DNA from: Marasmius tenuissimus | Taxonomy: Eukaryota > Basidiomycota > Agaricomycetes > Agaricales > Marasmiaceae | NCBI GenBank assembly: GCA_029532415.1 | Contig: JAQOTA010000065.1 | Location: 868,001-932,000 of the forward strand | Reading direction: 5' to 3' | DNA length: 64,000 bases | In this document: in pieces, positions 4,141 to 64,000 of the stretch | How positions within the stretch are numbered: position 1 is the stretch's first letter | Layout: each line of letters opens with the position of its first letter | The notes under the pieces: model-generated | Seen by the model: the letters and a program-made list of their open reading frames with translations, nothing else | Told to the model about the DNA's origin: nothing | Database searches by the model: none | Made by a program: the position numbers and the translations under genes

Positions 4141-4254
4141 GAGGCCACGTGATGCTAATCTCCGCGATCGCCGATCCATCTTCGACTCTGCCTTGCCGCT
4201 CTCTCAACTCTTTCCATCAGATACGCCATATAGACGCATCGGTAGTCCCTTAGT

Positions 4255-7904: not shown

Positions 7905-8447
7905 ATCCATAAACCGTGCAAGTAGGATTTACAGCGGCCTTCGAGGGCTTCGATAAATATCCTTCTCCCTCCCTACACTCTACACCCTCCTACCCCGCCC
8001 CCACCCCCACCAAACGCATCAACACAAACCTTCCTCTCCTCCTTCCCTGGCCCCTCCCCCGTAAGCCTCTCATACTCCCTAACAATCTCCCCATCCAACA
8101 CCTCCCACTTTCTCAACCTCGTCATACTCTTCGGATCCAAATCAATAACCGTCACATTCCTCGGGTCCACGTCCTCCTCACCAGACGTAGTAGTACTCAA
8201 CCTCCCCATCCTAATAATAACCGAACAATCCTTAAACGTCGCACTCAACAAATACGCCAACAAAAACCCCCTCATCTGTCGTTTCGTATACCCTTCCTTC
8301 CCCTCCGGAAGCGGTCCAGGTAAAAACGTACCCCCTCGAGATTGGTCAAGATACCCATCGATAAACCCCATCCACTCGTCAATCATCGGTTCTTCCATTC
8401 CCTCTCCGAGGTCCGGAACCTCTCCCTCTGATCATCTATGACTATGA
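7905..8447 (-). pseudogene. IPK1 3'-end remnant, copy R3 (still open, about 141 residues)
   Basis: The best preserved IPK1 fragment. On the minus strand an open frame from 8398 to 7973 keeps the DEWMGFIDGYLDQSRGG, RGFLLAYLLSATFKDCSV and SMTRLRKWEVLDGEIVREY stretches of the intact gene, with a few small insertions (for example PLPEGK). Everything upstream of the terminal exon is missing, including the nucleotide-binding lobe and the zinc-type CRFCMH motif. No kinase could be made. Similarity ends at about 8447, where the 7TM-3 upstream block begins. I infer a recent 5'-truncated duplicate. Confidence 0.8.
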
Positions 8448-8449
8448 AA

Positions 8450-9100
8450 AACAGTCAGTTGGCCCTTGTATTCAACAGGCGGAACATAGCACCCAACCCT
8501 TACATACCTCGGACTTTAGCGCACCCTTGAGAGCCGGGAGTCACAATCAGAAACTCATCGACGGCTCTGATGAGCCAACAGTCGCGACTCAGACTATATA
8601 TACATGGACTCACCGTGCGGAATCCGATCTCAGAACTGGCCGAGTTGCTATGCACGCACGCACAACTCTCGACAGCTATAGTATCCACAAGTCCTGTCGC
8701 TCTCAACGGGCTGTACCGGATCGGCCACTCAATTCAGGAACTTTCAACAAGGTAGTACATGTCTGCTCCCACTCAACTCAGGCTGAGGTCTGGTCTCATC
8801 ATCTCTATCTATTCATCTCAGTCGGTCAATCCCCATCTTTCGAGTTGGCAACACTGGCGATCAAAGCACCCGGTGCGCCGGAAAGAGAAGCAAACTCCCT
8901 TGATTCCTCCAGGACTGTAGACACGCCTTAATGAAATGAGCTCTTCCGTGATCAATCTCGCAACGGTCACCATCATCCCATAATAAAAATCTGACAGCTA
9001 CAGATATATAAGATGCATACCCCCTCCAGTTTAGTTTACCGTGACGTCGGGTGACCATCCCTCCCCTTCCCATGACTCTTCCTCTTTGACCGCATCCCCA
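8450..9100 (+). promoter_or_regulatory. 7TM-3 upstream region with TATA-like box
   Basis: Homologous to 1500-2164. A TATATAAG box lies at 9005-9012, about 90 bp before the chosen start codon. The region abuts the IPK1 R3 fragment with no spacer, marking a duplication junction at about 8448. Confidence 0.55.
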
Positions 9101-10605: not shown

Positions 10606-10955
10606 AGTGGTACGGCCTGAAAACGCGGAACATTTTACAGATGAACGATTTGTATGTACTTAAGTATAAGGACTATCAAGATATTGGGTATACCTCAGAT
10701 TCGATCCCTCGATGATTCTAATTAATGCAAATCGCACCCGGTCATGAATTGTATGATATAATCTGCTCGGATACTGTGTGCTGTTTTTTACTACACGTTG
10801 AATACCAGTGGCGTGATCTAGGCATCATGCATCAAAGCTCAAGTCGGGGTGGGGAAGCCGACTATCAGATGCATAAAAAACGACAAAACCGCAAAAATAG
10901 GATTTACAGCGGTCTGATAGGGCTTCAATAAATATCCTTTCTCCCTCTCTACACC
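10606..10955. other. 3' region between 7TM-3 and IPK1
   Basis: Convergent intergenic DNA of about 350 bp. It matches the flanks of the three IPK1 remnants (for example 10855-10950 with 15-115), so it belongs to the duplicated unit. No gene is seen. Confidence 0.5.
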
Positions 10956-12599
10956 CTACACCCTCCTGCCCCCGCCCCCACCCCCACCAAACGCATCAAC
11001 ACAAACCTTCCTCTCCTCCTTCCCTAGCCCCTCCCCCGTAAGCCTCTCATACTCTCTAACAATCTCCCCATCCAACACCTCCCACTTCCTCAACCTCGTC
11101 ATACTCTTCGGATCCAAATCAATAACCGTCACATTCCTCGGGTCCACCACCTCCTCTTCATCCTCACCAGTCAACCTCCCCATCCTAACAATAACCGAAC
11201 AATCCTTAAACGTCGCACTCAACAAATACGCCAACAAAAACCCCCTCATCTGTCGTTTCGTATACCCTTCCTCCCCACCAGATAAGAACGTACCCCCTCG
11301 AGATTGGTCAAGATACCCATCGATAAACCCCATCCACTCGTCAATCGTCGGTTCTTCCATTCCTTCTCCGAGATCTGGAACTTCTCCCTCTGATGTGTGA
11401 CTATGAAATGTTTCCCACACTTTGACTAACCCTTCGATGTCGAGCATGTCCAGTGTCCTCTGTAGCCGGTTTAACACCTGTAATGCCGGTGTACGTGTTA
11501 AGAGGGGTACGAGGGCCGATATGAACGTTGTTCGGAGGAGCTCATCCGATTGGTTTTCATTTTCATTTTCTTCCCAGAGTAGATGTTTCTTTCACAACGA
11601 TCAACACGAGAAGGAAAGAAGGAAGGGAGGAAAGAAGGAAGCTCACCTCATCCACTTTCAAAACCTTCCCCCCAAAAAACACTTTTAGATTATTCACTTT
11701 CCCCTCTGACGTATCCCACGCATCGTACAACGCACCCAACGCGTCGCGTACGCGTTCTTCGTCGGCGGAGAACAAGTCCAACGGGCAGTATCCGTGTGCG
11801 ACGAGGCCTTGGGCGTGTGTGGGGCGGTGGGACGAGTCTTGATGGTTTCTGACAAAGGAATGCATGCAGAACCTGCACGTGTTGGTTTTTACACTCCGTG
11901 TGGAGGGGGAGAGGTAGGTTGGGTTGGGTAGGAACGACCATTTGGGCTATTACACCATCAACACTGTCACTACCTTGGATTCCCGACGCCCGACGAGAAG
12001 GAACTCACCTTGATCTCAACACTCACCCCCTTTCCTCCACCCCCAACAAGATCGGTAGCCAAAACCCCTTTATGTTTATGCACATCCACACCCCCAGTTT
12101 TCCTCCGATTCTCCGGTCTCTCGTGTTCATGAGCCTTTGAAAGCGCACGTAACCACCTATTCGAATGGATATGCGGAGGTCCATGTATCGTAACTGGGAA
12201 CGCCCCCGGCATCCTCATTTCCACGTCGCTGTCTCGGTACGACCCAGTCACTTCATCCACCGAAACGCTCCTCACGGGGTCAGCTCTCACGATGACGCTC
12301 TGTAACTTTGGCAAGTGTTCTTTGGGTACGAGACGGGACATGCATTGGCGTTGGAAAGATATGGATGGGTCTTCGTCTTCGCTCTCCTCTCCATCCGAAG
12401 AGTCAGAGTCAGAGTCAGAGTCGGAATCGCGAACACCGACGGGGACGTTGGGTTGTTTTCGTAATCTGAGGACCATACCGTCGAATGTGGGGTTGGAGGG
12501 ACCGATGTATGAGAAGACGATGGTCGCGCCGCCTTCGGAGACGTATTTCCAGTCTGTGGTTGGGTCGGTTTGGGTTATGTCGGAGGAGGGGGAGGACAT
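10956..12599 (-). CDS. IPK1: inositol-pentakisphosphate 2-kinase
   Basis: Makes phytate (InsP6) from InsP5, with nuclear and mRNA-export roles in fungi (family knowledge). The three exons are 12599-12009, 11946-11647 and 11588-10956; phase closes and gives 507 residues. The N-lobe has the EGGATIVFSY glycine-type motif (22-31) and LRLRK (about 44-48). Exon 2 starts PKWSFLPNP and holds CRFCMH at 221-226, part of the zinc-type site. Exon 3 has LDMLDIEGL and the diagnostic KDCS at 425-428. A Ser/Asp/Glu-rich insert lies near residues 57-75, and the C-terminus ends in a short glycine run. The gene shares a 300-bp promoter region with LAS17. Its last exon is the source of remnants R1 to R3. The call is strong. 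Confidence 0.9.
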
Positions 12600-17772: not shown

Positions 17773-20193
17773 TTACACAGGACTATGTGTAGGACTAATT
17801 TCAAGTGTAGCAAGGGCGGGTGTAAATACCGGAATAGGGGTAAAAGGGTGTGGCAGACGACGTGCCTTTTCTACCACTCTCATGGCTGCAGCCCATTCCT
17901 TCATTCCCGAGGCTCCTTTACTATCATGATACCTACGAGAAGAGTACAATTGCCTCGAAATGATCCCCTTGTTGATCAACTCCAGGAGCTCAAGGCCTGT
18001 ATCACTCCATATCAGTGCGGATCTACAATGATGCTGTATCCTCTTCATCTCCAATATGTGACGAGCGAAAGCAGCGATGAGAGCGAACCGTTCGTCGTCT
18101 TTTTCTTCCGCGCCGCCGTAGGTTTCCCATCCTTCTTTGTAGAACTCTATAAACTCAGCGCTCCGCCACGCGATTCTATGGTCCGGATGCATCCACAATC
18201 TCAGCATGGCGTTGAAGGGTATCGGAAACCGGATTCCAGTCTTGCGTGGAACATCGCCGCTGGAAAGGATTCTCCGAGTGTAATCTTTAAGCGCCGCAAT
18301 GGGGACCTCATGATGCATCGAGGCGTCTCTCCAAAACTGCTGGAAATACAGCAACTCGACGTAGACAGGTAAATGAAGCGGGGACTCTGCCGCACCGGGC
18401 GATTGGGACCATTCGTACTCGATCCCATCACGTACAGAGAGTCCGGAAGTTATACTCATCTCGAGCTTCTCGTCGGCGAGGTGGGAGATGTGTCGACTCA
18501 AATCCTCGAGAGAGGCTTCGACATCCAGAAAAGTGATTGGAGAGGCCCGCCATGTACAGATCTTCCATTCGTTGAACACGGCTGCCATCACGACTGAGGG
18601 GTCATAATTTGAGAGGATTTTCCTCAGGTGAGGTCCCATTGAGGGAATGTCGTGAAACATGTTGACCAACCCACGCAAACCTTCAAGCTCGTATATCTTG
18701 AGGTCCGAATCTCCGCCGAGAGGTGTCGTAGCAAGCGGCGTGCTGATATCCGAAGATTGCAAGCTCTGCAAGCGAGACGGCTCAACCTCGTCACAGATTC
18801 GTACGTGATGGAGATCCAAGGCCGGCCAATGGGATGCTCGATGAAGCAAGTCATAGCCAGCGTTGGGCGTACGCCAACGCAGTTTCCATCCCGAGAACGA
18901 TGGTAGTAAGGGTGGAATGGTATCAATCAATTTACGGGCGATGCAGAATACCCCCCACGCCTGTGGGGACTTGAAAGGGCAGATGAAATGGTAGAGTAGT
19001 GCAGTTGGAAAACCTCCCTCCTGGTTTTCCACCGGCTTAAAGTTGGCGAATGCGGTGACAATGCTTAAAGCGGGTAGCACGGTGGTAACCACGTAAAGTG
19101 CTCCTCCCATCCCCACGGCGGTGGCTGCGATGGTAAACGGGATGATATGGAGCACCCATAGCAGTTCCAAAAGGCCCGTGAAGAAAAAGAGCAAAGAGAT
19201 TTCGAGGAGGACGGGAAGAGTTGCGATCATCGAGGACACCCCCCATTTTTCGAAGCTTTCGTTGCGTAACTGGCGCAGAGCGAGTGCCTCCGCTCGTGAA
19301 CGCGTGTGTGTATCTCGTGTATGCTCTCGTAGCCATTGTTTACACAAGAGACCGAAGAAAGCAGATAAAAGGCTGCAAACTATGCTAAGAAACCAGAACG
19401 AATTGATCCTGATCACGGATGATGGGGATGGGTTGAACGAATTGAACGACGCGGAGGATGTCAGCGCTTGTCCATCAGAGATGTTTAGGCTTGGGAGTTG
19501 TCGCGATATCTGGGTAAGAATAATAATAATCTCGTCCTCTGGGTCTTTCGACAGCCACCGATACGACTCTTCAATGGTGAACGCGGTAACAACGGCCGAA
19601 AATAAGGCAGCCTGAATGAAGATACTGTGTGAGGCGCAAACTACCTCATTTGAAGTGCAGTGAAGACATACAAAGACCATGAGGGTGTCCATATCATCCT
19701 TCCAGCCCTTCGACACATCTTCGTCATATTTCTGCGCCGCTTTGAGGACCGAAATTTCCCATGAATTGAGTGCTGACGATCGAGGTGGCAGAGGTGTTGC
19801 CATTGACATATCCAGCCCGGCTATCGGTGCAAATTGACCTGGGTTTGCAGGCCTGCCGAGGGGCTCGGGAGCAGTGTAGGGCGTACCCCAGTCACCAAAC
19901 CTTTGCTGGCTAATCGGAGGGTTTACGGGGCCGCCCGCAGGGACTCCACCCCTGTATGACTGAGACCCGGCCCCAGGGAGCCATGTTTGCGGATTGTATG
20001 GCGTGCCCCAGTCATTAAACCTTTGCTGGCTGGCTGGAGGGTTTTCGGGGTTGCCTACCCAAGCCCCAGCCTGGTATGACTGAGATTCAGGAAGATCGTG
20101 CGTCTTCCAGGGAACAGTGTAGGGCGTACCCCAGTCACTGACTGGAAGCCTTTGATGGCTCACCGGAGGGTTTGTTGATGGTGCAAAATGCAC
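17773..20193 (-). CDS. DUF6535 domain membrane protein
   Basis: One long exon of 806 residues. After an N-terminal region of about 130 residues comes the DUF6535 core: IFIQAALFSAVVTAFTIEES, LLTQISRQLPSL, then INSFWFLSIVCSLLSAFFG LLCKQWLREH, followed by two more hydrophobic segments (ATLPVLLEISLLFFFTGLLE and TIAATAVGMGGALYVVTT). The rest is soluble and helical. The family is expanded in Agaricomycetes and has no known function. The N-terminus carries three copies of a motif of the form NPP-x-S-x-QR-x-x-DWGTPY. The true start might lie further upstream in another exon. Confidence 0.75.
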   Translation of the reverse strand: MHFAPSTNPPVSHQRLPVSDWGTPYTVPWKTHDLPESQSYQAGAWVGNPENPPASQQRFNDWGTPYNPQTWLPGAGSQSYRGGVPAGGPVNPPISQQRFGDWGTPYTAPEPLGRPANPGQFAPIAGLDMSMATPLPPRSSALNSWEISVLKAAQKYDEDVSKGWKDDMDTLMVFVCLHCTSNEVVCASHSIFIQAALFSAVVTAFTIEESYRWLSKDPEDEIIIILTQISRQLPSLNISDGQALTSSASFNSFNPSPSSVIRINSFWFLSIVCSLLSAFFGLLCKQWLREHTRDTHTRSRAEALALRQLRNESFEKWGVSSMIATLPVLLEISLLFFFTGLLELLWVLHIIPFTIAATAVGMGGALYVVTTVLPALSIVTAFANFKPVENQEGGFPTALLYHFICPFKSPQAWGVFCIARKLIDTIPPLLPSFSGWKLRWRTPNAGYDLLHRASHWPALDLHHVRICDEVEPSRLQSLQSSDISTPLATTPLGGDSDLKIYELEGLRGLVNMFHDIPSMGPHLRKILSNYDPSVVMAAVFNEWKICTWRASPITFLDVEASLEDLSRHISHLADEKLEMSITSGLSVRDGIEYEWSQSPGAAESPLHLPVYVELLYFQQFWRDASMHHEVPIAALKDYTRRILSSGDVPRKTGIRFPIPFNAMLRLWMHPDHRIAWRSAEFIEFYKEGWETYGGAEEKDDERFALIAAFARHILEMKRIQHHCRSALIWSDTGLELLELINKGIISRQLYSSRRYHDSKGASGMKEWAAAMRVVEKARRLPHPFTPIPVFTPALATLEISPTHSPV

Positions 20194-22481
20194 CCTAGCC
20201 CGAGGGACACCCTGAGGCTCAGGCGTCTGAGGACCACACCGTCAGAAACTCCTTCACGTGCAACAGTGCCCTTTAGCAAGTCACTTACAGGGTAACCCCT
20301 CGGACCAGTAGTATCAGCAGACCACCATGGCTGCTATATTCAATTGCGCGCCAATCAGTACCTATCTCAAGGTCACAAAAAAACACTGATGGACAAACTT
20401 CTCCAGCAGACTCTGTATTTGGTCCGTGGACCATGAAGGGGTGTCTGTTTACCGGAGTATCCCGCGAGTCTGAGGAGATTGAGGGAAATCCGGCTCGCGG
20501 GCTTGGGGTTGCTAATGGTGGGATCCAGGGGGTTGCAGATGGAACGACCGGCGGAGATGGCCCATAAAATATTGGCGGTGGCTATATTTTTGACCATGGA
20601 GGCAGAGTGGGAGTGAGCGTATCAGATTTACGTCGAGTCCTCGCAGGAGCAACACGGGGAACGTACTCCATCATCATTGTAGTTCTCATCCTCGCGCCCC
20701 GAGTGTCCCAACGGTCGTTCATCTTCCACCCTATCAAGTGGAACCTGATCATAGTTAGCTTTAATAACAGCGTCTTGCCAACGATGAAAGCCCACAGTCG
20801 GATGATTGCTGTCAAGCTGTTCGGACAGTATGGGCGGGGTTGAAGTTGGTGGAGAAACATAGACGTTGACGGGACTCAGAGCTCCTCTGCCCGCCCTATT
20901 TCTGTCGGGACCACTTGATGCTGTGTGGAATGACTCCTGGGATCCGAAGTTGATGAATGAGTCTGGACTGACATGGATTGAGTAGACAGAGGTCCCACCT
21001 CCGATGTGTGAGCATTCAAGTTCCTTGCTGGGTCCATGTTGGGGATTTGGATTGTGCAGGGGCTTTGGAGGGGGTAGAAGATGATATATACAGTGAGGAC
21101 CCATGAATGTTTGACTCATGGCTATGACTGATTGCTAATTGAGTCGCAACGTGGAAGGTCACCGGTTTTGTCCCAGAAGTTCTTCCGCGTCAAAACAATG
21201 AGTGGGAACATCGATGTCAGAGAGTAACAGAAGAATATGGTGGAAGGCGGGGAATGCCATAAGTGATAGTATGGGCGCAAGATTGAGCGCGCAAGGAGAT
21301 TACCGACCCCCGACAATGTTAGTGGCGGAGGTGACTTTCTTCCATCAGGCTCTTCCATAATCTCCCAGTATAATCTTGATGTAGGCTTGCAGTTTTATGT
21401 GGAGCGTGCGAAAACATTCCAAGAATATGATCGATCCCATTCTATGATGGGTCGAATGAGCTTCGAGGCCTTGGTCTGATATGAGCTCGGAACCGGAAAC
21501 GTACATGAGATACATGATGCATATGGGCCTACGTTCGAGACTGAGAGCCGCCTTTCCCGGAAGGACTTTCACAGCGGAGCCCAGAAGAAATTGAATTCTC
21601 AACGGCACCAGTATTTCTCAGCCTTGTTTGTGGATATCTTCCCTAAAATCCGTTGTGCACATCGATCATCGATGTCCTCGACTCCTCGCGCATATCCGCG
21701 ACGCGACGCGTTGATCACGTGATCGAGAGCAAGTATCACCTGGACTCGGAGTCGCTTGGGAAAAGCCACTTGACGCGCCGTCGGTTGCTGTAGCCGCCAC
21801 CATACAATGGCATACCATTGTTGTACTCGCTCTTGAGACATAACGCGACCATGTTTGCAGTTGAATGATAAGGACAGGTGGCTTTACAACAGGAGTTGAA
21901 CAAGTTGAAAACAAGTGAGGAACAACATCTCGAATCCGGGGCTTGATATATCCCGTCCACATTTCGACGTAGTCCTTCGAGACCGTTGTGAACCCAGGAC
22001 TGTGAAGAAGCGGCCAGTGGTTAGCGAGAGCATTGATTATCGCTCAGAATGGCCCAGCTTGGAAGTACTCACAGAGCCCAGTACCTCTTTAGAGACTGAA
22101 CAGAATCCGCAAGCGTACGATTCGGATAACATCCAGGTTGATGGTTGGCGTCGACCATGGGACCCACATGCATGAGAACCAAATCCATTTGGAAAGAAGG
22201 GAGAGCGTCGATGAGGGTGCGGACAGCAAGCAAGCCTATACCGTAACCTAGTAGGGACGACGTGAGTATCAGCAAGAATGAAACTGCAAGGTACTAGATC
22301 AGTCTACGTGCCTCTCCATTGTGGATCGAGATAGACTTCTTGAATGAACAGTTTGTCGCCTGTTCATATGAGTTGTTGATACATATATCATTGGAGGGTT
22401 CGTGAATGGCACAATTAAGACACGCAAGGCTTGAGTGCGGACTCAAACTTGCCTTGGTCAGCCTCGTCCAGCGCCGTGTTC
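20194..22481. other. unresolved stretch, possible exons only
   Basis: No gene model is supported. An open frame of 163 codons on the minus strand (21119-20628) encodes a Ser/Pro-rich, low-complexity sequence beginning MSQTFMGPH. Its position upstream of the DUF6535 gene would suit an N-terminal exon, but the reading cannot be joined confidently. At 21701-21724 GC-rich acgcg repeats run into a 12-bp palindrome GATCACGTGATC containing an E-box. Confidence 0.3.
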
Positions 22482-35654: not shown

Positions 35655-37545
35655 TGAGGCTAGATACCATAGGAACTAAGAAGAGATGCATACCTTGAGC
35701 AATCTCGACAACAACAATGTCGGTTTTCGTTGCGAAAAACGGATCGAGCCCTAGAATGGATACAACCAGGTAAAGTCGGAAGGGTCAGAATGCATGAGGG
35801 CATGAGGGAACATACCATCCACGACGTCGACCTCTTCAAATTGGTTTGAGTCGTCCTGCGAGGGATTGCATAGGGGATATCCAAGAGACTGGGCAAAGTC
35901 GGCGGTAGTGGGATCAAACCCGCGGGCGATCTGATACTGATACATTGTTCCGTAGGTTTTGCTAGACCAAAAACGCGCAAGCGACGGGTGCACTTTGAGC
36001 TCGAGCGTGATGGGGAGACCGAGACGACGGTGCATGTTGGCTGAGAGCCGGGACTGGCCTTCTTCATCGAAGGACCAGTAGTGGAGGGAAGGAGTTGTAC
36101 AAGACCTGAGACTCGGGAGAGAAGTTGAGGGTAAAGGGCGGATAAAGAGGTAGATCGGTTGCTGGCAACGTCGTCGGCGTTTAGATGTAGTCTGCGAGAT
36201 AGAGCCTTCCAGGTAGATTTCAGGCACGATGAGCTCTGAGAGCTTTCATCAGCAAAGCAACGGGCCCATGGCAAGCAACACGCACTGTACTGGCTCAGAT
36301 CATCCTCCAGAGGAATTCCGAGAGCGTGAAAAATACTCGACGCCTGTGACAACCAAACCCTGTTTGCGAGTTCTGAAGGTGGGAAAAGAAAGAGGCGGTT
36401 TTGAGAGGAATGAAGAGTGAATCTGAGGGCGAATTAGCCTACTATAAGCTCGACAATTTGCTCAAAACTCACCTTGTGAGCCCATTTACCAGTAATGTTC
36501 CTCCACTACCTAGACTCCAACAAGCTCCGGTTGCAACACCGATGGGTGTGTGGGTTGAAGTTGAGAAGATCGTCGGTGGACCGGATTTGAAGCCGAAGTC
36601 TCGCGCCAAGGATTCAGAAAAAAGCGAAGAAAGCACGTCGATCACGTCGCGATCGACGCCTTTCGACTTGAAGCATGTGAAGAAACGGAAGCAGACATCC
36701 TCCTGCAGGAGCTCGATGGTTGATGGAAGATTCTTGATTTCGACGTAAGAACAGCGCAGTTCCAAATCTGGCCCCCATAGTCCTCGACACAACACGCCTC
36801 GCTGAGCATCCATCCACACACTGCTTCCCTCGCAACCCAATTGCATCTAAAATCTGGTTAGTAAAGATTCTCTGGCGCTGTTACTGTGGCAACTTACAGC
36901 GAACGCAGAAAAATACGCCCACCCCAGCTCCCCCACATTGGTCATAAAATGCGCGGCCGGTACGAGCTCTGAGCGGGATCAGCCATACTTCGATAAACGC
37001 GCATACCGACACACATACCTCCAGGGAAAATCAACATAGGGATCCTTGAGTGATTGATCCCGAACAGATATGCATGGTTCGGGCGTCTGGTAATATCTGA
37101 GCTGAAGCACCTTTTCAATGGCAAAAAAACAGGGGGGCTCACAGAGTTCTAGAGTACTCCTTGAAGTCTCTCATCCACTCCTGTCAAACGAGGTGAGTCA
37201 GTTGCCAGTTGAAACCGACACGCGAACACGCACCTTTTTGTGCGTCATGTCCCTCGTATCCTTCAACTAATTTCCATGCCCAGATCGCGAATAAGTCGTA
37301 TGTCGCCACGCTTGTTTTCGTGAAGATGCACATCAGTCCTCCATCTGACAAGAAAGATTCATGGGCGTTCTCACTTGTTCAAATTCTGCCTCTTGCTTGG
37401 TTCTCCATATCCAGAATCCTCTGCGTGGACGAGTGGTCGTCACTACCTTCGTCATGTTGTTGTATTGGTCGCCCTGGACATTGTTGAAGTTGGGATGATT
37501 GAGCATAACGTTCTCCAGTCTGGCATCGCGAAAGTACTGGGACAT
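35655..37545 (-). CDS. uncharacterised Agaricomycete-specific protein
   Basis: Several minus-strand exons match, in order, a family I recall as common in Agaricomycetes but without a function. The first (37545-37375) begins MSQYFRDARLENVML and holds the typical NVQGDQYNN. Later pieces are VEGYEGHDAQK (about 37240), LFGINHSRIPMLIFPGG (about 37030-37080), LVPAAHFMTNVGELGW (about 36930), and 36846-36475 with LPSTIELLQEDVCFRFF. Then come WLSQASSIFHALGIPLEDDL (about 36310), LHYWSFDEEGQSRLS (about 36060) and QIARGFDPTTADFAQSLGY (about 35900). Exon borders are approximate; the join after exon 1 did not close in my hands, so a defect there is possible. No signal peptide is seen. Confidence 0.6.
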
Positions 37546-38276
37546 TGTGTTGTGGCAAGGCGATGTAGGTAGCGAACTTTGTACTGATATAGAGCTGTCG
37601 AAAGGCCATGGGAAATATTCCAACTTCCTGGGCGTTATGGAGACGACTAGAATAGGCTAGCAAGGTGTAAGCATATCATAAGAGAAGACGGTCCGACGCT
37701 CCCTAGTAAGGGTTCTGCATCGAATGTCCACGAAGGATCTCTTCGATTCACCTCCTAGCCTCTGAAAACCGCGTTTGAGAAGGCGTGATGACTGACAGAG
37801 GAAGTTCCCGAAACGGCGAGATAGATAATCAGTTCTCCTTTGAAATCGTGAGATCGTGAGATTCCTCCACCGTTGCCCTGGGGTCAAAATTAGCCTTGAT
37901 TGTCGAACCAGCGCGAGCTGGGGACGAGGCTGATTAGACCCGAGGTCTGTCGTGTCTGGGGCGTAGCGAGCGGATCGATTATACCCACTGGCGATGACGG
38001 AGGAGGACAGCAGGGAGTAACGAAGATGAGTGGCCTTGGAGTTGCCTTGGAGATGCGATTGCCGACGCGGATAACGGTCCGGACCTTCTCTCACCTCGCC
38101 TTAGCATACGTCTGCCGCATAACACATGTAATAACCACTCATAAGAAATCAATGTAGCGGCTAGATCGAGTCCTCGAGTCTAGGGGAGAAAAAATCATTG
38201 CACACAAACAATGTCATTCATCGTACTAGTTCTGTAACTACTAGTACAAAGAATTATCCTCTTCTGAGCAGACACT
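37546..38276. other. no gene seen
   Basis: This is the 5' region of the gene ending at 37545 and the 3' side of the secreted kinase-like gene. An open frame on the minus strand (38094-37657) is rich in Arg and Ser and shows no family features; I do not call it. Confidence 0.35.
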
Positions 38277-39599
38277 TCAACGACGACCAGGAGGAGGTGG
38301 GGGTGGGGGTGGAATACCACCGGCGCCCGGGGGAGGAGGTGGAAGGCCACCACCGGCAACGCAGAATCTGTTCTTCTTGAAGTTTCGGTTGGTAACGGTG
38401 TCGATCTAAAAATTAAAATCGCTGGTTAGAGATGATCACAGCCCGCTGAAAACTCAACACTTACATTGGCGTCCGATGCGCCTTTCTTGACATCGCCAAA
38501 GTCGATCATGGTTAATTGAGTCACAGCGTCATTGAATCGGAACTAAGGGGGGGAAAGTCAATATTGATCGGTTGACGCAAGGAGGCCTGGAACTCACGTT
38601 GTCCATGTTAGAATCGTTCTGAATAAACCCTGCGGAGTTCTTCAACTTCGTCTGCTGTTCCTTGATCAGTTTGACAGCGTTATCAAACTTGGTCTCGCAA
38701 TCCGCTCCAAGCGAAATTTTGTCGAAGGGTTTGCCGCTGACTTCCTTCAAGACCATAACAGGCACCCCAGTGACGACACCTTCTCCAACAAACAATCCAC
38801 TACCAAGCACTTGAGAAGCCTTTTTCGTGTCGGCGATTTCATCCTTGAGGTTTTGGATGGCACCCTCCCCTGTCGAGCGAGGGATCTTGACAACGAAACT
38901 TCCGGATTGGAACACACTCGGAGTGGGACCGAGCTGCTTCTCAAGCTTGAGCGACTTTCCGGCTACGCTGATCGCTGGAAGATTGTAGATTTCAGTCAGT
39001 TGAAGATCGCACAACAAAAACGAGAGGAACGCACTTTCTCCGACTTTAGGCAGCTTCTTCTGCTCGAGTTATATCAGCATTTGCTCTCAAGACGATGGAC
39101 GTCAAGGAGCACTTACTACATCACAGGCAGCTCCATTGTCGGCCCTCTTACCCTTCCCACAGTTTGTCTTTGCGGGTGCCTTCGCAGGAGCCTTCGCCGG
39201 TGCTTTGGCAGGTGCCTTGGCAGGTGCCTTCGCCGGTGCCTTCGCTGGAGCTTTCGCTGCCGGTGCCTTCACTGCTGCCTTCGTAGCTGGTTTGACAGCC
39301 GCGGGCTTCTTCGCTGCAGCCTTCGTCTTGGCCCGCCGTTCGATTGTGAAGTTTTCGAAATCCTCATCGTCCTCGTCCTCTTCGTCATCGAGTTCAATGC
39401 CGTCAAAGTCTGCCCCGTCGACATCCGAGTCACCAAAAGCATCTCGAGTGATGAGGCCATCAGAAATGAACGTGTCGGAGACGGCGGCACTGGTGATGTC
39501 GACGTCGCTCGTTTGCACCTGAGCGATCGGTAGCGAAGTAACTCGCAGACCGAGGAGCGCCATATAGACGGACAAGATGAGAACGCGTTGCGGGAACAT
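38277..39599 (-). CDS. secreted kinase-like protein with Lys/Ala/Pro repeats
   Basis: The five exons are 39599-39117, 39059-39035, 38974-38598, 38542-38465 and 38405-38277; phase closes and gives 363 residues. The N-terminus is a signal peptide (VLILSVYMALLGL, cleavage near residue 22). An acidic DDEEDEDDEDFENF stretch is followed by about ten KAPA/AKAP-type repeats to residue 140. The second half looks like a protein-kinase fold: SFVVKIPR (Lys199), a Glu-rich helix (DEIADTKKA), the MVLKEVSGKPF hinge-like segment, QNDSNMDN with Asp290 and Asn295 at the HxDxxxxN spacing, and MIDFGD with DFG at 309-311. The C-terminus is a polyproline/Gly tail. The His of the loop is Gln. Role and substrate are unknown. 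Confidence 0.7.
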
Positions 39600-40917
39600 A
39601 GTGCAGTGTCGTTGAAACGTAAAATGAGTAAAGAGAGAGGGCCAAAGTTGGATGTGTCGCGAAAGAAAAACCGTTAGAGCTCTGTGGCCAAACAACGTGT
39701 TAGGTTGAAGGATACGAGTATGGATATCGAAGCAAAAGCTCACCGGCTCAGAACGTTGGAAAGAGGGAGTGAAAAAAGAAGAAAGAGTCAAGACCTGCAA
39801 ACGATAATGAGTGGTAGGCTTGGTGAGTAGGCAGGTAAGTCGACACTTACCGAGCTTGAACTCTGAGGAGAAAGGAAGAGATGAGGAGAGGACTAGCGAA
39901 GGTTCCCTGTCGATTTCCAGGCCAAAAGGCCATGGTATTTATACCATTTGGCTTCATACACCATGTGATACCTGCGCACACCTGGGTCCCACATCAGTAA
40001 GGGAAGAGTGTAATAAGGGAAGAGTAAGGGAAGAAGTTTTTCCAGATTTTCGGATCAAAAAGTTGGTGACCAGCCCTACCCTGCCCTACCGTCCAAAAGT
40101 CGACACCCTCCGCTACTGCTGTCAGCTACAGGGGCTCTGAGGAACTGTTTGGATGGAGTCTAGATTAGCTTTGGAAACACAAGCATAAGATGTATTCTTC
40201 AATTTTCCCTTCACTTTCGCCCACATTGCACGCCATGGGAGGTCAAGCGCCCGAAATTGATTAACCTTTGGGAAATCAAAAAGCCGGTAAGTGTGGCGGC
40301 GTGGCGCCACTGCGCTGCACTGCTCCACCAGGATGAAAATCAAGGGCTCGTTCAGGTGAACGGCTCAGGTCAGACTTAGCCCGGGTTGAACGAAATCACC
40401 CCTAATGTCATTGTTCAGTTGATAACCTCTGATAACCCTAGGGCTTGGCTGTAACGACCAGACTTACATCGGATAGCCCCACTCCGATTTCGACCTTACT
40501 CCCTAACAATCTGGTATCTATTCAGAGTCCTGGAGCATATATTGAGTATGTACTCCGGTGTTTTGAATCAATGGACTTATACCTGTAATATGAGACCTCT
40601 AGTGTGATCAGCACTCCCGCACGGATCACATAGGCTAACCCTGATCTTGTTGGCGGGAAATTTCGTTAAGCCGAGGCTAGGCCCTGGGTGTTCACCCGAA
40701 CGGGCCCTTGACGACAAGCATTTGGTTCTAGCATCGGCCACCGCGAAGTGGGAACGGTATGGAGTAAAGGTGTCAGTGTATTCAGTTACTATCAGCCATA
40801 CATGTGCAACTGTAACTTCGGTATCTGCATGCTGGATCTTATCTCTCGAGAGTCTTTCCAAAGAAGAGCGTTAGAACCTTCTAAGACTTGTGAGATAGCA
40901 CAAGCCTACTCACGCGT
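39600..40917. other. intergenic, no gene seen
   Basis: The right part (40758-40917) is the 3' flank of the GH7 gene and is the source of the scrap at 34985-35175. A direct repeat of the agtaagggaagag motif lies at about 39996-40035. No coding region is supported. Confidence 0.4.
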
Positions 40918-42362
40918 TCACTGGGTGAAAGTCGAGCCAATGGGTCCAACCTTGATGTTGGAGAAGGTAACGGAGGCATCGGGGTGTTGGGATTCGACAG
41001 TCTCGGGGGCGCCAGAATCAGCAGCGCAAGTACCACGAGCAATACCAGGGGTGGAAGGGTTGGCCTCAGTGGGGTAGTTGGAGTCGAGCCACAACATCTC
41101 AGCTTCATGGTCGTCCCAGATACTCATGACGAGAACCATACCGCCGGCGAAAGCATCTCCCATAACAGAGATACCTCCACGATCTTCGAAGGAGTTGGTG
41201 TCACCGAAAGCCTCCTTCTGGGCATTGCAGAACTCGTCGGTGATAGAGTCGAATGCGTCCATACCGGGAATGTTGGTCTTCGAGTTCTGGATGACCTGGC
41301 CGTTCTGAACGTAGAGACGACGAATCTCGGTGAGAGTTCCGGTAGTAGAGTTGTTGTCAGTGACGAATTGGGTGACGACAGTGATCTTCGAGTTAGTATC
41401 GACGGTCATGCCGGGGCCCAAGAAGGACTTGTCGCCCATACGGAAGGAGTTGAAGTCGCATCCATCCTTGTCACAGATACCGTCGTAGCGTTGGTCGCCA
41501 TCACCACAGTCAGTGCCAGTGCAGGCAGTCTGACCTTGGGAAGTGCCACGACAAACGTGAGGAGTGTATGCGGCAGCATTGATATTAGCCTCCCAGATAT
41601 CCATCTCGTTACAGCACGCTCCCATGTCGCCTTTGCCAGCGTTCTGGTCATTATCGGAAGGTTCCCAGCCCTCAACGTTAGCCTAGAAAATTGATCGAGT
41701 CGTCGGGTCGGAGCCTAGATGAGGACTAAAACAAGAGAACGTACCTTTCCGTCAATGAACTTGATGTCGTGCGGGCATTGGGTATCGCAGTATCCGGTGC
41801 CGTACTTGGCACCAGCCTTGTTGCTGCTGGACTTGGACATTCCGCCGTCGGCGTCCATGGAAACGAAGTAGAGAGCTCCGTTGAGGCCGCAAGGAAGGTT
41901 GGACATGTCGACATCGAATGTGAACTCCTGGCCTCTTAGATCGAACATCTGGTACTTGGAGTCGGACGAGTCCATGAGGTAGACACGGGAGCCGATGTTC
42001 GTGGAGTAAGGGCCGTCGGTGACGAACTTTAAAGTGAGACCGTTTCCAGAAGTGGTGATACCGTAGGTACCGCTGTAGTCCGCACCGTCAAGGGCACAGT
42101 TAGTGGCGCACGTTTGACCGTCTGGACAGAGCGAGGAGTCCCACTCGTTGCCAGTGTAGCAGTTGGTAAGAGAAGTATCGTGGAGCCAACGCCAGTTGGA
42201 ATCGAGGACGACGGAACCCTGTTGGGTCGCACAACTGCCTCCAGCGCTACATTTCGACCAGGAGAGTTTTGGGTGAGTTTCGGCAGTGTTGGTACCGACC
42301 TGTTGGGCGACGGCGCCAACGGCGAGAAGGGCGAAAGATATGAGAGTTGCCTTTGGAAACAT
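40918..42362 (-). CDS. cbhI: GH7 cellobiohydrolase (reducing-end), no CBM1
   Basis: Secreted processive exocellulase releasing cellobiose from cellulose reducing ends (family knowledge). The two exons are 42362-41745 and 41682-40918; phase closes and gives 460 residues. The signal peptide [20 protein letters not shown] ends before [11 protein letters not shown], which is the usual mature N-terminus. The catalytic motif [11 protein letters not shown] gives Glu232 (nucleophile), Asp234 and Glu237 (acid/base). Loops typical of cellobiohydrolases rather than endoglucanases are present, including [20 protein letters not shown] and the [20 protein letters not shown] region. The protein stops at [10 protein letters not shown] without linker or CBM1, as many basidiomycete GH7s do. 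A TATA-like box lies at 42431-42440. Confidence 0.93.
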
Positions 42363-42430
42363 CGCAAAAGCCTTCGACCGGAGGAGAACCTGAGCTTTGA
42401 AGTGAAGAATCGGTCTAGCGTCTTCGCCTC

Positions 42431-42440
42431 CTTATATTCC
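42431..42440 (-). promoter_or_regulatory. TATA-like box of the GH7 gene
   Basis: The minus strand reads GGAATATAAG about 70 bp upstream of the start codon, the usual place for a core promoter element in inducible cellulase genes. Confidence 0.5.
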
Positions 42441-43819
42441 CAAGCGGAAAAACAGTGGCAAGGCCACGGATTCGACGCGGCAGTAGTCAAAGCGAGAGCT
42501 AAGTGAGCTGGTCGTCGCTAAATATCGACCCGTGAACGATAATTTCAGCTCTGGAGTGATATTTTTGGAGCCCAATGGCAAGTCCGAGAACTTTCCGCTG
42601 TAGCACTAAAGCCGGATTCTTTTCATCGCTGGCTTTTGAAAGGCGTTGTAAAGGATCCGTACCATGCAACTTTGCTCCACTTTCTCCGATGTAATCAGTC
42701 TTCTTAGACTTCTCTCTGCCGCTGTTACGGCCGTCTCTGAGGTTTCTACAGATACTCGTACTCGTGCAAGAGAAGAAGTACAAAATCGAATAGAGTTGAA
42801 TTGAGACGCAGAAGCTGGCGTCGCAATAAGTCCTTCCGGCTCTTGTTGAGAGAAGTCGAATGGGGTTGAAGCGCAATCCGTGATATGGCCGTGTTTCAGA
42901 GCAATTCTGTCTTTAGGATAGTAGAATCAGTCCAAGTATGCGATGCTGGTGTAGGGAGAAACGACCAAGTCGAATTCTGGACGAAGAAGTTCAAGGGGGC
43001 ACGCTAACACAAGTGCCGCGTCATGTTGGTCGAAGGCGAACCACAACTCGTGTGGCTGTGCTCAATATAAAGCCTAAACTTATGGACCACATAGGGAGCA
43101 AGCGCTTCAGATTTTTTTCCAAACCCATTCTATTATCGCTTTCTCCTCGACTTCAAGTTCTTGCCAGGAGAATAGACTGCCGTCACTACACATAAGCTGG
43201 TACACCTATTCTCAACACATCGGCTTGCTAGATCTTATCGGCCTCCCTGCTTGTTTTTCGCTGTGGTTGTTTGCTGCGAATATACTTACTACTCCTGTCA
43301 TCTCACTTGTGAGATTAATCACGCGGAATTTCTTCAAGTTCTCTTATAGTTCGATACTGACGCGGACTTCCGGTCACTAAGTATCCAGCTTCAGTTCGAC
43401 CACCCTCGATTTCAGCTTGCCATTATACCCGGCTAGAGGCCTTAGGCAGCAGGCAGCAACGCTCTTCATTACTCTGAGTAGGGAGGTTAAAATACAGGTC
43501 TAAAACATGGGATAGTTCAAGAGAGTAATTGGGGAAAGGTGCTTTTGAGCGTTGCGACTTTGGTCTGATTTTGATTGATTTGACATCGAGAGGACCCACT
43601 TCCTTACTATGAGCAAGGGCTCGAAGGCGTCTCAGGTTCTCCTCGACCGGCTCTCGAGGCCACGCGAACAACGTTCATGAGTCGTTTCGACATGTTCGAT
43701 GGGATCGTTTCGGTCAAAAACTTATTACAAAGGTTCATGTGTGGACTGGCTGCAGTGGCAGACAAGCGCTCGGCTCGGACCACTGGTTGATGATATTCAA
43801 TGCATCCGAGTACAGAATA
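42441..43819. other. GH7 upstream region, no gene seen
   Basis: About 1.4 kb upstream of the GH7 gene and downstream of the frameshifted gene at 43914. Short open frames only. Regulatory elements for cellulase induction are expected here but I cannot point to a specific one with confidence. Confidence 0.35.
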
Positions 43820-58623: not shown

Positions 58624-59347
58624 GGTGGGGGAGGGGCAAGTCGGAACACGTAAGCGGTTCTGGTGAGAGGCTCGTGATTTTGTCTGCCGCTCAACTGCCG
58701 CCACAACACAGCTCTCACTTTCTCGCGTACGCATTTCTGCATGGTTTCCGACCCTCCTCCACTCAGCGTCTTCTATCACTCGTCTCGGTAAGGAGACCCT
58801 CAGGCTGAAATTCAACGGAATCTGCTCTTCAGTACCGATAACTTGTTATCCAACATGTACAGTGGGAGGGTACAAAGCGTACGCGAACACTGCGACACTT
58901 CACCCTTGCGATTTTGTACCGATTTTGTATACCGTTTGATCATCTCTCTCTACCATCTTGTCTTCTACTCTAGTCCAAGTAAACGGTTCTCCTAGCGAGT
59001 CTCGCCCATTTAGAACCACAAATCGCCTGGATTGTTCTCCGCAGCCGTTTGGGAATGTTTTTGGACACTTCCCGTCTCGTTTTGGCCTAGTTGGTCACTC
59101 ACGGTGCGTGCCACCGGGATTGCGCAACACTGGCGGCAGAGTGGCTGGGGCAGATTCTCAACATCGGTCTCAATCGGTCCACATATCTCAGCGGTAGCGC
59201 TGTGCCGCAGCGATGACGAGCGCTATTCTATATCATGTGAAAAGATGGTAAGTCGTTGACTCGGTGTCTATCAACTGCGGAGCTTATTCTATTTTGTATT
59301 AAAGGCCGTCCTCTCTAGATTTCGATGCTTTACTTTGAACCATCACG
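58624..59347. promoter_or_regulatory. divergent promoter region, OPI3 / DUF7330-like gene
   Basis: Interval of 724 bp between divergent starts. No clear TATA box. A matching tcaaaccatcacg block precedes the start codons at 59348 and 61968, so part of the promoter was duplicated with the gene. Confidence 0.4.
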
Positions 59348-61104
59348 ATGTCTCCCCCAGAAAGAGATGAAGAAAAGGCTCTGCTCAGTGAGCCCTACTA
59401 CGACAACGATCAACAGCTTAAAGCTTCAGATGAACCACCTCAGTACGCAATGGAGGTCCAGGACGACAATGTCGATCCCTCTGCTGAGAGGAAAGCTCGC
59501 AAGAAGAAATGTTTCAGAAAGTTGGGCCGTCACCTTGCTATCTTCGCCGTCCTCTACTTCGGCTGGCAAATTTTCTTCCGACGTCAGCCCTCTTTGGGAC
59601 ACGCAGGCTGTGGCTGGGATATAATACCTGGCTCGGAGTCCCAAGTGGATGATGTCTTTCGATTGGTACGTACTCAAGCCCTTGCTGTTACAGTTCTCTA
59701 AGTGGAACCGCAGGACGAGAGGCCGAAACCTTCACCAGATGAATTTCCTTGGCCTCCTCAACTGACGGTCGAAGAGTGTGTCAAATGGCCGGAGCATGAT
59801 CCGCACGACGATGCTGAGCACGGGCACCGCGGCTGGAATGGACGACACGGGCACGAGCATGGCCATGACCATCCCCGCCATGAGCACTCCTTAGACTCCT
59901 CGTTCTCTCTGCCAGCTTCCTCCGATGCGCTTGGGCTCTTCGCTAGAGGCCCGTGGTCTGTCGGACACTTGAATGTGGAACAAGGCTCAGAGGAGACAGA
60001 TCAGGTTTTGATCAACGTCACTACCAAATGGCACGGTCCCGAGCGACTTCTGAATCTTGTCCAGCTTTGCAAGTTCAAAGGCGGTGAGAAAGAGCTCGGC
60101 GTTGGCATTGTTGTAAGTTCACTATACTCGTGCTTATCTTTCATGGTGTATTCATTTGCTCTCCCGCTCCCAGTCGAAGAAAGGACATCGTCACCCCCAT
60201 GGACGCCACCATCACCACATTCGTTTTGACGTCAATGTTATCCTTCCTCGGTCGTCTGACAAGCGGCTTGAACTCAATAAGTTTGTCACCTGGATGCCTG
60301 TTTTCAGTCAATCGTTTGGTCGCCTCGACAAGGGTGTCCACTTCGATACAATCGGAGTCTTCGGATCTGTTTCTTCGATTCAAGTGGAGGTATGCCTTGG
60401 TCTCCGAGTCAAACTCTCGAATCGTGTTGCTTACGATACATTCCAGTCCCTGTCCGCGAGAAACGCTACCGTCGCTGCTGCTGTAGGCTCTATCAAAGGA
60501 AATTTCTCGACTTCCGAGTACTTGAAGCTCGCTACAGCGAGTGGTGAAATAGACGTCAATGTAGGACTTCATAACGACGACAAGTCCGAGAAATGGACGC
60601 ATCTCGATCTTCGCACTGCTGTTTCGTACGTCCTGCTGTTTGACTGCTCATTTCGAATAACATCGCTCACGAATATCTTGAATCCTCAGCGCCATCAAAG
60701 CCAACGTCTCCATGTTCACTGATTCGTCTGATTCTGGAGGTAAATTCAACATTACTTCCGGTTTCAAGAGTGGATCCGTCAACCTCAACACGTTCATTGG
60801 TCCTCCCAAGTCGACTGTGAACTTGGCGGTCGCAGGAGGAGTAGGCGCCATCGATGTTGCGATGCATAAGTTGTTCGAGGGCAAGTTCAACGCTGTCACC
60901 TCGCCGTTCTCGAGCCCGACCATAGTCAAACCAAAGGAGGAGGAAGAGGATGGGAAGGAGAGGAAGATTGACTTTGAGAAGGTGGGCAAGGGTGCCGCGA
61001 CGGGCAGTGTTTGGTGGGAAGCGGGAGATGGAGACGATAGTGGGAGGGAGAGAGGAAGTGTGGAGCTGGTTAACTCGTTCGGGGCTGTTACCTTGAAGCT
61101 TTAA
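59348..61104 (+). CDS. DUF7330-like type II membrane protein, intact paralogue
   Basis: The five exons are 59348-59665, 59714-60112, 60174-60389, 60447-60625 and 60690-61104; phase closes and gives 508 residues. It has a charged cytoplasmic tail (MSPPERDEEKALLSEPYYD) and a membrane span (LGRHLAIFAVLYFGWQIFF, about 60-78). Next comes a His/Asp/Glu-rich stalk (HGHEHGHDHPRHEHS), then the family motif SSFSLPASSDALGLFARG. A second His cluster (HRHPHGRHHHHI) follows. The beta-rich body repeats strands such as FDVNVILPRSSDKRLE, SVSSIQVESLSA, AVGSIKGNFSTS and ASGEIDVNVGL. It ends GSVWWEAGDGDDS, then VTLKL. DUF7330 is a name from memory for this Agaricomycete adhesin-like domain. The His stalks could bind metal, which is inference. 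Confidence 0.75.
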
Positions 61105-61967
61105 GTTTGAGATGTTTCCATTGGATCAAGTATGTACGCTCGTTACCTATCAAATTGTACCTACCTCTATTCGCCACGGCTCTCTGGGCATTATACTACG
61201 CAGACTCCAGTTATAGTGTGCGGCGCTGAGGCGACGTTGAGGGCGGCCAAGCTCCTCTTAAGTATAAGGAACCTGGACTCTCGTGTAGATGCACCGCGGG
61301 ATGAATTTTGGGTGGCGACCACTATAGCGGAAACGTTCTACTCATTGAGTAGAAATAAATCATTGAATCGAGTCGGCGGGACGGGTTCCTCGAAGCTCGA
61401 ACACGCTCACAGCCTACATAATAACCTCCTTGGGAGCTTGACGTTTTCTTTGTTTTCGTAGCATCAAGGCCACGGTCAGCAGCTCCCAGTACTATCGCAG
61501 CGCAGTTCGAGCCCCACGGAGGTCGACTGAAGGCTTGCGTTTCTGTGGGAAATTGTGGGCTACAGGTTTTTCGGGTCCGAAGATCTCCAGCGCCTCGCGT
61601 TTCAATGTCTTCCCACTACGTCTCCTAGCGCGCTGAGGGCTTTATCGAGTCGAAATCACTCGAAGCTACAGCATTTGGATTACCTCGAGTCTCCGCAGCT
61701 GCTCGGGAACGTCTTCCAATCGTCTTCCAATCAAGATTACAACTCGTTTTGGTCAAGTCCAGCGTGCCGTCGTGACGCGTAGTTGGATTGACACCGGGAC
61801 TAATTTTCCTCCAATCGCCTTCGGTCATTTGATCTATCGCAGCGAAGATGGGTTCACATCTCAATATCATGCGGGTAGATGCGTGTGATGTCGTTCTAAA
61901 GTGAAGATGGTTTGTATAGCCCGGGCCCCCTCTCTAGATCATACTGACTTGACCTCAAACCATCACG
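61105..61967. other. spacer between tandem paralogues
   Basis: About 860 bp with no gene. The last 50 bp (catcacgatgtctccca preceding region) match the upstream side of the first paralogue. Confidence 0.4.
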
Positions 61968-63703
61968 ATGTCTCCCAAGGACAGAGATGAAGAAAAGGCT
62001 CTTTTTGAGCCCTATCAAGACAATGGTCGACAGCTCAATACATCGGATGAACCGCCCCTCTACAGAACGGAAGGCCAATCTCAGGACACAAATGTCGATC
62101 CCTCTGCTGAGCGGAACGCTCACAAGAAGAATTATCTGAGGAAGATGGGCCGTCATCTTGCGATCTTCACTGTCCTCTTTTTTGTCTGGCAAACGTTCTT
62201 CCGTCGACCCAAAATCATAGTCTGTCGCTGGCCTCCTCCACCTGGGTCGGAGCCTCTGTTGGATGTTCTTGTTCAATCGGTGCGTACTCGAGCATGATCG
62301 TGTTTTCCATCACGATCTTCTGAGCAAACTTTGCAGGGCGCAAGACCCGAACCTCTACCAGACGAATTTCCCTGGCCCCCTCAGCTAACACTTGAAGAGT
62401 GTGTCGAATGGCCGCAACACTCCGATGATAATCCTGAGCACGGCTGCCACGACGACCACGGCCATGATCATCCCCACCATAAGTATTCCTTCGACTCCTC
62501 GTTCTCCCTGCCAGCTTCTTCCGATGCCCTTGGGCTCTTCGCTTGAGGCCCGTGGTCCGTCGGACACTTGAACGTGGTTCAAGGCTTAGAGGAGACAGAC
62601 GACGTCCTGATCAATGTCACTACCAGATGGAGCGCCTCCAGGCGACTTCTAGATCACGTCGAGCTTTGCAAGTTTACAGGCGGGGAGAAAGAGTTCGGCG
62701 TTGGTATTGTGGTACGTTCACTTTCCTCGTGCTTCTCTCACTATATACTCATTTGCTATCCTACTCCCAGTCGAAGAAAGGACATCGTCACCCCCATGGA
62801 CGCCATCACAATCACATTCGTTTTGACGTCGATGTTTTTCTTCCTCGTTCATCTGACAAGCGACTCGAAATCGACAAGTTTGTCACCTGGATGCCCATCT
62901 TCAGTCAAACATTTGGTCACCTCGGTCAGCGTGTCCATTTCGATACAATCGGAATGTTCGGATCTGTTGCTGCGATAACAGTGGAGGTATGCTTTAACTT
63001 CTAAGTCAGTCTTTTGAATCATGTTACTCATAGTGCATTCCAGTCCCTGTCCGCGAGGAATGCTACTGCTGTCGCTGCTATAGGCTCTATCACAGGAAAA
63101 TTTTCGACTTCTTCTTCGTTAAAGCTCGTCACAGCGAGTGGCAATATCGACGTCAACGTGGGTCTCTCCAACGATAACAAGTCTGGCAACTGGACGCATC
63201 TCGATATGCAGACTGCCGTTTCGTACGTTTTCCGTTTCGCCCGTCTTGCATAGGTGTTCCGACTGATCTCGTCGTTATTTTGAACTTCCAGCGCCATCAA
63301 AGCCAACGTTTCCATGTACACCACTTCATCCACTCCTGGAGGTAAATTCAACATCACTTCCGGCTTCAAGAGTGGATCTGTCAATCTTAACACGCTCATT
63401 GGTCCTCCCAAATCGACTGCAAATCTGGGTATCGCAGGAGGAGTCGGTCCCATAGACGTTGCGATGCACAAATCGTTTGAGGGCAAGTTTTACGCTGTTT
63501 CCTCGCCGGTATCGTACACGACCGTGGTCGCTCCGAAGGAGAAGAAGGAGGATGGAAAAGAGAGGAAGATTGACTTTGAGAAGATTGGGAGGGCTGCGAC
63601 GGGCAGTGTTTGGTGGGATGCGGGAGATGGAGATGACAGTGGGAAGGAGAGGGGCAGCGTACGGCTAGCCAGCTCGTATGGGGATGTTACTTTGAAGCTT
63701 TGA
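61968..63703 (+). pseudogene. DUF7330-like type II membrane protein with one in-frame stop
   Basis: Tandem duplicate of 59348-61104 with the same five exons: 61968-62279, 62337-62711, 62771-62986, 63044-63222 and 63292-63703. All borders and phases agree, giving a frame of 497 codons plus stop. A single TGA at 62544-62546 interrupts it at LGLFA-stop-GPWS, where the paralogue has AGA (Arg). Everything after the stop is still in frame, up to GSVWWDAGDGDDS and VTLKL. The His stalk is shortened (HDDHGHDHPHHKYS). Possible readings are a very young pseudogene, an allele-specific stop, a sequencing error or stop-codon readthrough (TGA followed by G). A truncated product of 192 residues would keep only the span and stalk. 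Confidence 0.75.
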
Positions 63704-64000
63704 GCTCGAGCTGCCTGCTCGATGTGAATGACAATGGGACACAGTATCCGCTTCTAATGCACCTTTATCGCGATGCGAGCGGCTTACTGGGATAGCAAAC
63801 CCCCGTGTTTGGACGGTCCACTCTCAAGTTCGTATCCCCGCTGCCTTGAGGACGCATGCCGGGGTTTGTTCAATGGGATCAGGATCACCGGATAGGCCAA
63901 CCCTCGCTATGGCTGAATGGAAGCTACTGAGGAAAGAATCGAGGAAGAACTTGCTGATCGATGTATTCTCGAAACCTCCACTACATCCTCATGCTAAGGA
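63704..64000. other. no gene seen
   Basis: Window end after the last paralogue; nothing supported. Confidence 0.4.

Follow-up and report, generated by a model that had tools for sequence, protein, structure and literature searches.

A putatively secreted, minimal kinase-like protein family with a Lys/Ala/Pro repeat tract in Marasmius tenuissimus

Each of the closest described systems shares some features with a family of fungal genes, one of which lies in the window (the whole 64,000-nucleotide stretch of Marasmius tenuissimus DNA analysed here). COQ8 is located in mitochondria. ADCK3 carries Gln486 ahead of Asp488, the same replacement of the catalytic-loop His as in the family, and with that Gln it binds nucleotides, according to passages of PMC4718504, which also give a KxGQ extension and an Ala-rich loop as COQ8 features. 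COQ8/ADCK3 and the family are alike in a Q-x-D-x-N-x-x-N loop with Gln for His, the DFG motif, the beta-3 Lys and the alpha-C Glu, but the family has a signal-peptide-like start and a C-lobe that ends soon after DFG. Bud32 and other minimal kinases also have a small kinase-like domain, and Bud32 models match one paralogue (C19a) from hinge to DFG at E 0.0069. However, that match scores 15.8 of 188 bits, was seen in one of four proteins scanned, and the family differs in its QxD loop and predicted secretion. The bacterial minimal effector kinases SteC and OspG likewise combine a small kinase-like domain with export, which takes place via type III secretion, where the family has a signal-peptide-like start instead. 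Fam20C is an animal secretory-pathway kinase, and ATP is available in the ER and Golgi. Descriptions of Fam20C and FAM69 place a kinase-like domain in the secretory pathway, as is proposed for the family, which is unlike both in its Kex2-type sites and polycation.

The repeats have counterparts of their own. HBHA has a Lys/Ala/Pro repeat domain that binds sulfated glycoconjugates, as an excerpt of PMC3293801 reports; its units are KKAAPA and KAAPAK, neither of which occurs in our eight proteins, whereas the family tract is internal and built of KAPA units. KEPs are secreted precursors with repeats and dibasic sites, and in an agaricomycete precedent Kex2 frees a peptide from an enzyme-domain precursor (both from sections of PMC9769878). 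In the family, by contrast, all repeats fall into one Kex2 fragment, with no KR or RR site inside the tract, and a large folded domain is attached. Membership among the KEPs was rejected because the repeats are not separated by Kex2 sites. The literature searched named no fungal family with the layout described below; one may still exist in print.

Gene structure, copies and relatives

The window gene runs on the minus strand from 39599 to 38277, where five exons encode 363 residues and a stop codon:

39117..39599, minus strand: exon 1, 483 nt, phase 0 at its end
39035..39059, minus strand: exon 2, 25 nt, conserved across the three copies on the contig
38598..38974, minus strand: exon 3, with N-lobe, hinge, long helix and catalytic loop
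38465..38542, minus strand: exon 4, carrying D309-F-G311 at 38495-38503
38277..38405, minus strand: exon 5, with the C-terminal segment and a proline-rich tail
38280-38348, minus strand: proline-rich tail, residues 341-363, followed by the stop codon at 38277-38279

The original prediction of one 363-residue protein from five exons was reproduced. Two more copies lie on the window's contig (C31), with DNA identities of 93% and 86%, and both keep the splice junctions and the frame, their exons showing whole-codon indels only. The three pairs of C31 copies have whole-protein dN/dS values of 0.05, 0.17 and 0.21, and values of 0.08, 0.31 and 0.42 in the kinase-like part. Against the nearer copy, intron 3 differs at 13 of 54 sites and intron 4 at 14 of 57, as opposed to 15 of 377 in exon 3; the farther copy shows less of a contrast, with introns 1 and 2 (6/57 and 7/60) roughly as divergent as exons 4 and 5. 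Comparison of the copies thus indicates that the gene is coding and under purifying selection. A chance or non-coding reading frame is ruled out by the whole-codon indels, the kept junctions and the low dN/dS.

The short exon 2, for which confirmation had been asked, is borne out by the copies: 0 and 1 of its 25 sites differ between the window gene and the other two. It is flanked by phase-0 and phase-1 introns, and at the same phases four divergent paralogues have an exon of 91-109 nt, with an intron at the place and phase of intron 2. This 60-nt intron is free of in-frame stops in all three C31 copies, so that its retention would leave the frame intact. As far as comparison goes, the unusual exon structure is real, since junctions and frame are kept in the C31 copies and a same-phase exon is present in the divergent paralogues. 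The proline-rich tail ends the C31 copies and is missing from the paralogues on C19 and C28.

The 71-Mb genome holds at least seven family genes (three on C31, three on C19 and one on C28). Weak matches on C19, from a protein search of the genome, led to spliced proteins of 344, 359 and 342 residues which, downstream of the tract, have 28-30% identity with the window protein. That search missed the C28 member, which was reached through a search for the repeat pattern; seven is therefore a lower bound. The first intron of the C28 gene (L075, C28:3352.2 kb) starts with GC (GCGCGT), those of the C19 paralogues with GT. At E up to 10, a protein-database search found only P0001 (E 6.3e-46), a hypothetical protein of Marasmius crinis-equi whose sequence is partial; an alignment-based search, which scored the 7995 candidates with the most shared words, returned P0001 alone at E up to 1. 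With a C19 member as query the only match was P0002 (E 1.9), which reads as an ordinary kinase. P0001 is the sole database relative found, from which a restriction of the family to this lineage does not follow. A pattern fitted 70 stretches in prokaryote genomes and 59 in viral contigs, none of them confirmed, and the phage records searched gave no match to the family. All eight proteins (the seven genes and P0001) share one layout: a signal-peptide-like start, a Lys/Ala/Pro-rich tract and a kinase-like domain.

Secretion start and Lys/Ala/Pro tract

The first half of the window protein contains the following elements:

39534..39599, minus strand: predicted signal peptide, residues 1-22, likely cut after VTS22, with a hydrophobic stretch and agreement with the -3/-1 rule
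39339..39533, minus strand: acidic putative pro-segment, residues 23-87, net charge -22
39333..39341, minus strand: candidate Kex2 site before the tract, E87-R88-R89 (ERR in 7 of 8 members, EGR in C28)
39165..39332, minus strand: Lys/Ala/Pro tract, residues 90-145, with 8 strict K[AVT]PA units
39144..39155, minus strand: candidate Kex2 site after the tract, K149-G-K-R152 (KGKR or TGKRGLERR in 7 of 8 members; P0001 is without it)

The signal peptide and the acidic patch of the original prediction are both there, the former without a single difference among the three C31 copies. The starts of all eight proteins were called signal-peptide-like from hydropathy, and secretion of the family is well supported. 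Dibasic sites stand on both sides of the tract in six of eight members. The Lys/Ala/Pro character of the tract holds, while the repeats, put at about ten, number eight when counted strictly.

The tract carries a charge of +18 in the window copy, counted to R152, and across the eight proteins Lys, Ala or Pro make up 87-93% of 60 tract residues, the repeats of P0001 being less regular. Among the C31 copies its dN is 0-0.03 and its dS 0.30-0.62, indicating that its amino acid sequence is preserved even as codon usage changes. Searching the 71 Mb with a degenerate 29-base pattern that encodes KAPAKAPAKA gave 44 matches, against none for the reversed pattern; the KAPA repeat is far beyond chance. 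These 44 matches cluster at nine loci, seven of them the family genes and the other two a pair of genes on C12, and all nine have signal-peptide-like starts (the second C12 gene was read unspliced). Tandem KAPA in this genome thus appears to be confined to proteins with such starts. The C12 genes (L073, C12:602.4-604.0 kb; L053/L074, C12:631-632 kb) are related to each other and not to the mini-kinases. Behind a signal-peptide-like start their proteins carry a DKR site and a CDHxVELQ domain, and at the C-terminus they have a KAPA-rich tail that ends in KGKR. For the one that was scanned there was no Pfam family beyond repeat noise and no PDB match; the DH-x-VEL core of the two proteins may be reminiscent of HNH-type nucleases.

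Full-length family proteins gave mostly low-complexity matches to the tract when compared with NCBIfam. A histone H1-like or otherwise nuclear protein, suggested by weak YL1-like Pfam matches of the tract, was rejected, all nine loci having signal-peptide-like starts.

The kinase-like domain and its likeness to COQ8

Three elements of exon 3 belong to the putative active site, together with the DFG of exon 4:

38886-38888, minus strand: K199, beta-3 Lys of the N-lobe
38838-38840, minus strand: E215, alpha-C Glu of the N-lobe
38598-38621, minus strand: Q288-N-D290-S-N-M-D-N295, catalytic loop

The lysine K199, Asp290, Asn295, DFG at 309-311 and Gln288 in place of the loop His are all where the original prediction had them. 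The beta-3 Lys, the alpha-C Glu, Q-x-D-x-N-x-x-N and DFG recur in all eight proteins, the beta-3 Lys of the C19 and C28 members aligning with a one-residue shift. Aligned by hhalign to ten kinase sequences (nine from the same genome and P0002), the family profile scores 51.1, against at most 25.8 in 100 column-shuffled controls and 11.7 in a reversed control; the two subgroups on their own score 34.0 and 56.1. Single members match the profiles of PknB (3.5e-5), LanKC (0.0056) and Bud32, each from hinge to DFG, and trimmed P0001 matches Pfam ABC1 over the same span (E 5.2e-5). No full-length member passed the Pfam cut-offs, and C19b alone matched no kinase family in the profile scans.

The structure prediction and fold search that had been proposed as a check were run, with a mixed outcome, both models being of low confidence (pLDDT 38 and 53). 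The model of exon 3 has a strand at the expected position of alpha-C, and its fold search lists a single kinase, Myt1, at rank 49 among the 50 rows listed. The P0001 model shows an N-lobe, and kinases or kinase-like proteins fill all 50 of the re-aligned rows listed, COQ8 not being among them (VIA-align). By Foldseek, 12 of its first 20 rows count as kinase-like, all rows having E > 0.2; rows of the SteC/OspG type stand at ranks 1, 2, 8 and 11 (E 0.26-0.73, not significant). This count takes the rows for SteC, OspG, HipA, CtkA and Cph001 as kinase-like folds. A kinase-like fold is well supported by the profile comparison with its shuffled controls and more weakly by the low-confidence P0001 model.

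The full bilobal fold that had been expected was not borne out. After DFG there remain 35-55 residues in the seven own-genome genes (52 in the window copy, proline tail included) and 12 in partial P0001, and no APE/SPE motif was found in the seven, so the activation segment is missing along with most of the C-lobe. The recognizable parts are the N-lobe, the long helix, the catalytic loop and DFG only. The window copy has a degenerate Gly-rich loop. Both the C31 copies and P0001 have an N-glycosylation sequon within the catalytic loop, though not at the same position (N289 in the window, N307 in P0001).

Which kinases does this active site resemble most? Compared with the PDB, a profile built from six of the family's eight proteins placed COQ8B (1.3e-4) and a reconstructed COQ8A (4.6e-4) on top, followed by two ADCK3/COQ8A entries (0.0025-0.0026), a serine/threonine kinase (0.0046) and others from 0.097. 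The COQ8 matches cover 45-48 residues in the PDB search and 76-99 in Pfam. The genome's own COQ8 copy on C20 reads MMQTDPNYTNFLYN, with the loop QTDPNYTN, and the loop region of P0001 reads FIQDDPNITNFLFN. However, simple patterns found KxGQ in the N-terminal extension of none of the eight proteins (the KAGQ of C28 falls after alpha-C) and an Ala-rich loop A[AS][AS][SI] after residue 140 in none. Against the ABC1 cut-off of 22.9 bits the window protein scores 11.4, full-length P0001 21.0 and C19c 13.9, C19a and C19b have no match, and trimmed P0001 reaches 22.9, the printed value of the cut-off itself. Membership of the window protein in COQ8 was thus rejected on the two features not found and its 11.4 bits: judged by these patterns and scores, the family has a COQ8-like active site and is outside COQ8 as defined. 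The shared short loop could reflect either common descent or convergence.

An ABC1 search of the genome gave 35 matches, and the 16 loci read comprise nine ordinary kinase frames, one COQ8 frame (L024) and six without a clear loop motif. Among the latter are L023 and L025, the strongest matches besides L024, yet without that motif; L023 shows an Ala-rich loop.

Possible function and surroundings

The best explanation, to which we give a probability of about 0.4, is that the gene's product is a minimal kinase of an atypical kind, synthesised as a pre-pro-protein, secreted, and tethered or delivered by its polycationic tract. What we infer of its activity, target and processing runs as follows. 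The acidic segment (-22) would mask the cationic tract (+18) within the secretory pathway, as the charges of the window copy suggest, until the late Golgi, where cleavage by Kex2 behind ERR89, and perhaps behind KGKR152 as well, would uncover the tract or release the kinase domain. The tract might then bind polyanionic surfaces (a plant or microbial wall, a cell surface, nucleic acid), holding or delivering the domain at its target; by analogy with HBHA, whose unit differs, an affinity for polyanions is plausible. At the target the domain would bind nucleotide, as the kept ATP-site residues (beta-3 Lys, alpha-C Glu, catalytic-loop Asp and Asn, DFG) suggest, and modify that target. Against this explanation counts that neither dibasic site is universal among the eight members. 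The sequon in the loop would be awkward for an active enzyme, and the weak Gly-loop and relaxed dN/dS of the kinase part also speak against activity.

The first-ranked rival, unlikely though it deserves weight, makes a Kex2-freed Lys/Ala/Pro peptide of about 60 residues the product (antimicrobial, cell-penetrating or wall-binding); the acidic segment would be the pro-piece that neutralises it, and the kinase-like domain would serve in its folding or as its carrier. It fits the dibasic sites that flank the tract in 6/8 members, the near-opposite charges in the window copy, the near-constant amino acids of the tract at high dS and a second family with a signal-peptide-like start that bears it. 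However, the first site is missing in C28 and the second in P0001, the charge balance is weak in C19 and C28 (-5 or -6 against +23 to +32), and catalytic residues conserved in 8/8 would be odd for a mere carrier.

Next comes a secreted pseudokinase, an improbable reading in which the fold is kept as a binding module or allosteric scaffold without phosphotransfer. The degenerate Gly-loop, the change of His to Gln, the APE/SPE motif not found, the sequon in the loop and a kinase-part dN/dS of up to 0.42 would all agree with it. K, E, D, N and DFG are nevertheless invariant in 8/8 over two divergent subgroups, and ADCK3, with the same Gln, binds nucleotides, as part of PMC4718504 reports.

Third and quite improbable is a kinase of the ER or Golgi whose substrates would be proteins that the fungus itself secretes, the role of Fam20C in animals. 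In its favour are the signal-peptide-like start and the four cysteines that each of the seven own-genome mature proteins contains. No HDEL-like C-terminus was found in the seven full-length proteins (P0001 is partial), the cationic tract and Kex2 sites suggest passage past the late Golgi, and the Pfam scans had no Fam20 match, which a remote relation would tolerate. A functionless remnant of a COQ8-type gene, decaying after its capture downstream of a signal peptide, would explain the COQ8 proteins as best PDB sequence matches and the truncated domain, but is very improbable given purifying selection, seven copies and a layout conserved in M. crinis-equi. A lesser point is that, in the single own-genome COQ8 exon read through, no intron stands at the place of the family's intron 3.

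If the preferred reading of a secreted minimal kinase is true, a mushroom-forming fungus has lineage-specific exported kinases with a COQ8-like active site outside mitochondria. They would form a small system for asking how far a kinase fold can shrink and still bind nucleotides, and another for polycationic repeat tracts as extracellular anchors or delivery tags. A bolder version, which we consider doubtful, takes the tract as a portable delivery or anchoring module on two payloads, the COQ8-like mini-kinase (seven genes) and the unrelated CDHxVELQ protein (two genes), with Kex2 trimming or freeing at GKR and the kinase-type enzyme acting in or on other organisms. The Kex2-type sites, the placement of the acidic segment, the Q-x-D-x-N likeness to COQ8, the seven-gene family and the second tract family all go beyond the original prediction.

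An Rfam scan of the window had no match at gathering. The gene lies in a duplicated piece of the contig:

36557..42872, no strand assigned: duplicated block, five pieces with 76-91% identity to C31:849.5-855.8 kb (blastn)

This block carries the mini-kinase gene and the adjoining GH7 (cellobiohydrolase-type) gene at 40918-42431 (Pfam E 6.3e-114 and 4.3e-92 in two frames). Elsewhere in the window, 17773-20241 is an 822-aa open frame with a DUF6535 match (E 1.3e-51), and DNA at 1-11408 and 59310-63713 is duplicated inside the window in pieces 66-93% identical. A frame at 31500-32222 matches PF09994, the T6SS Tle1-like phospholipase catalytic domain, at E 1.4e-10, here in a fungal genome.
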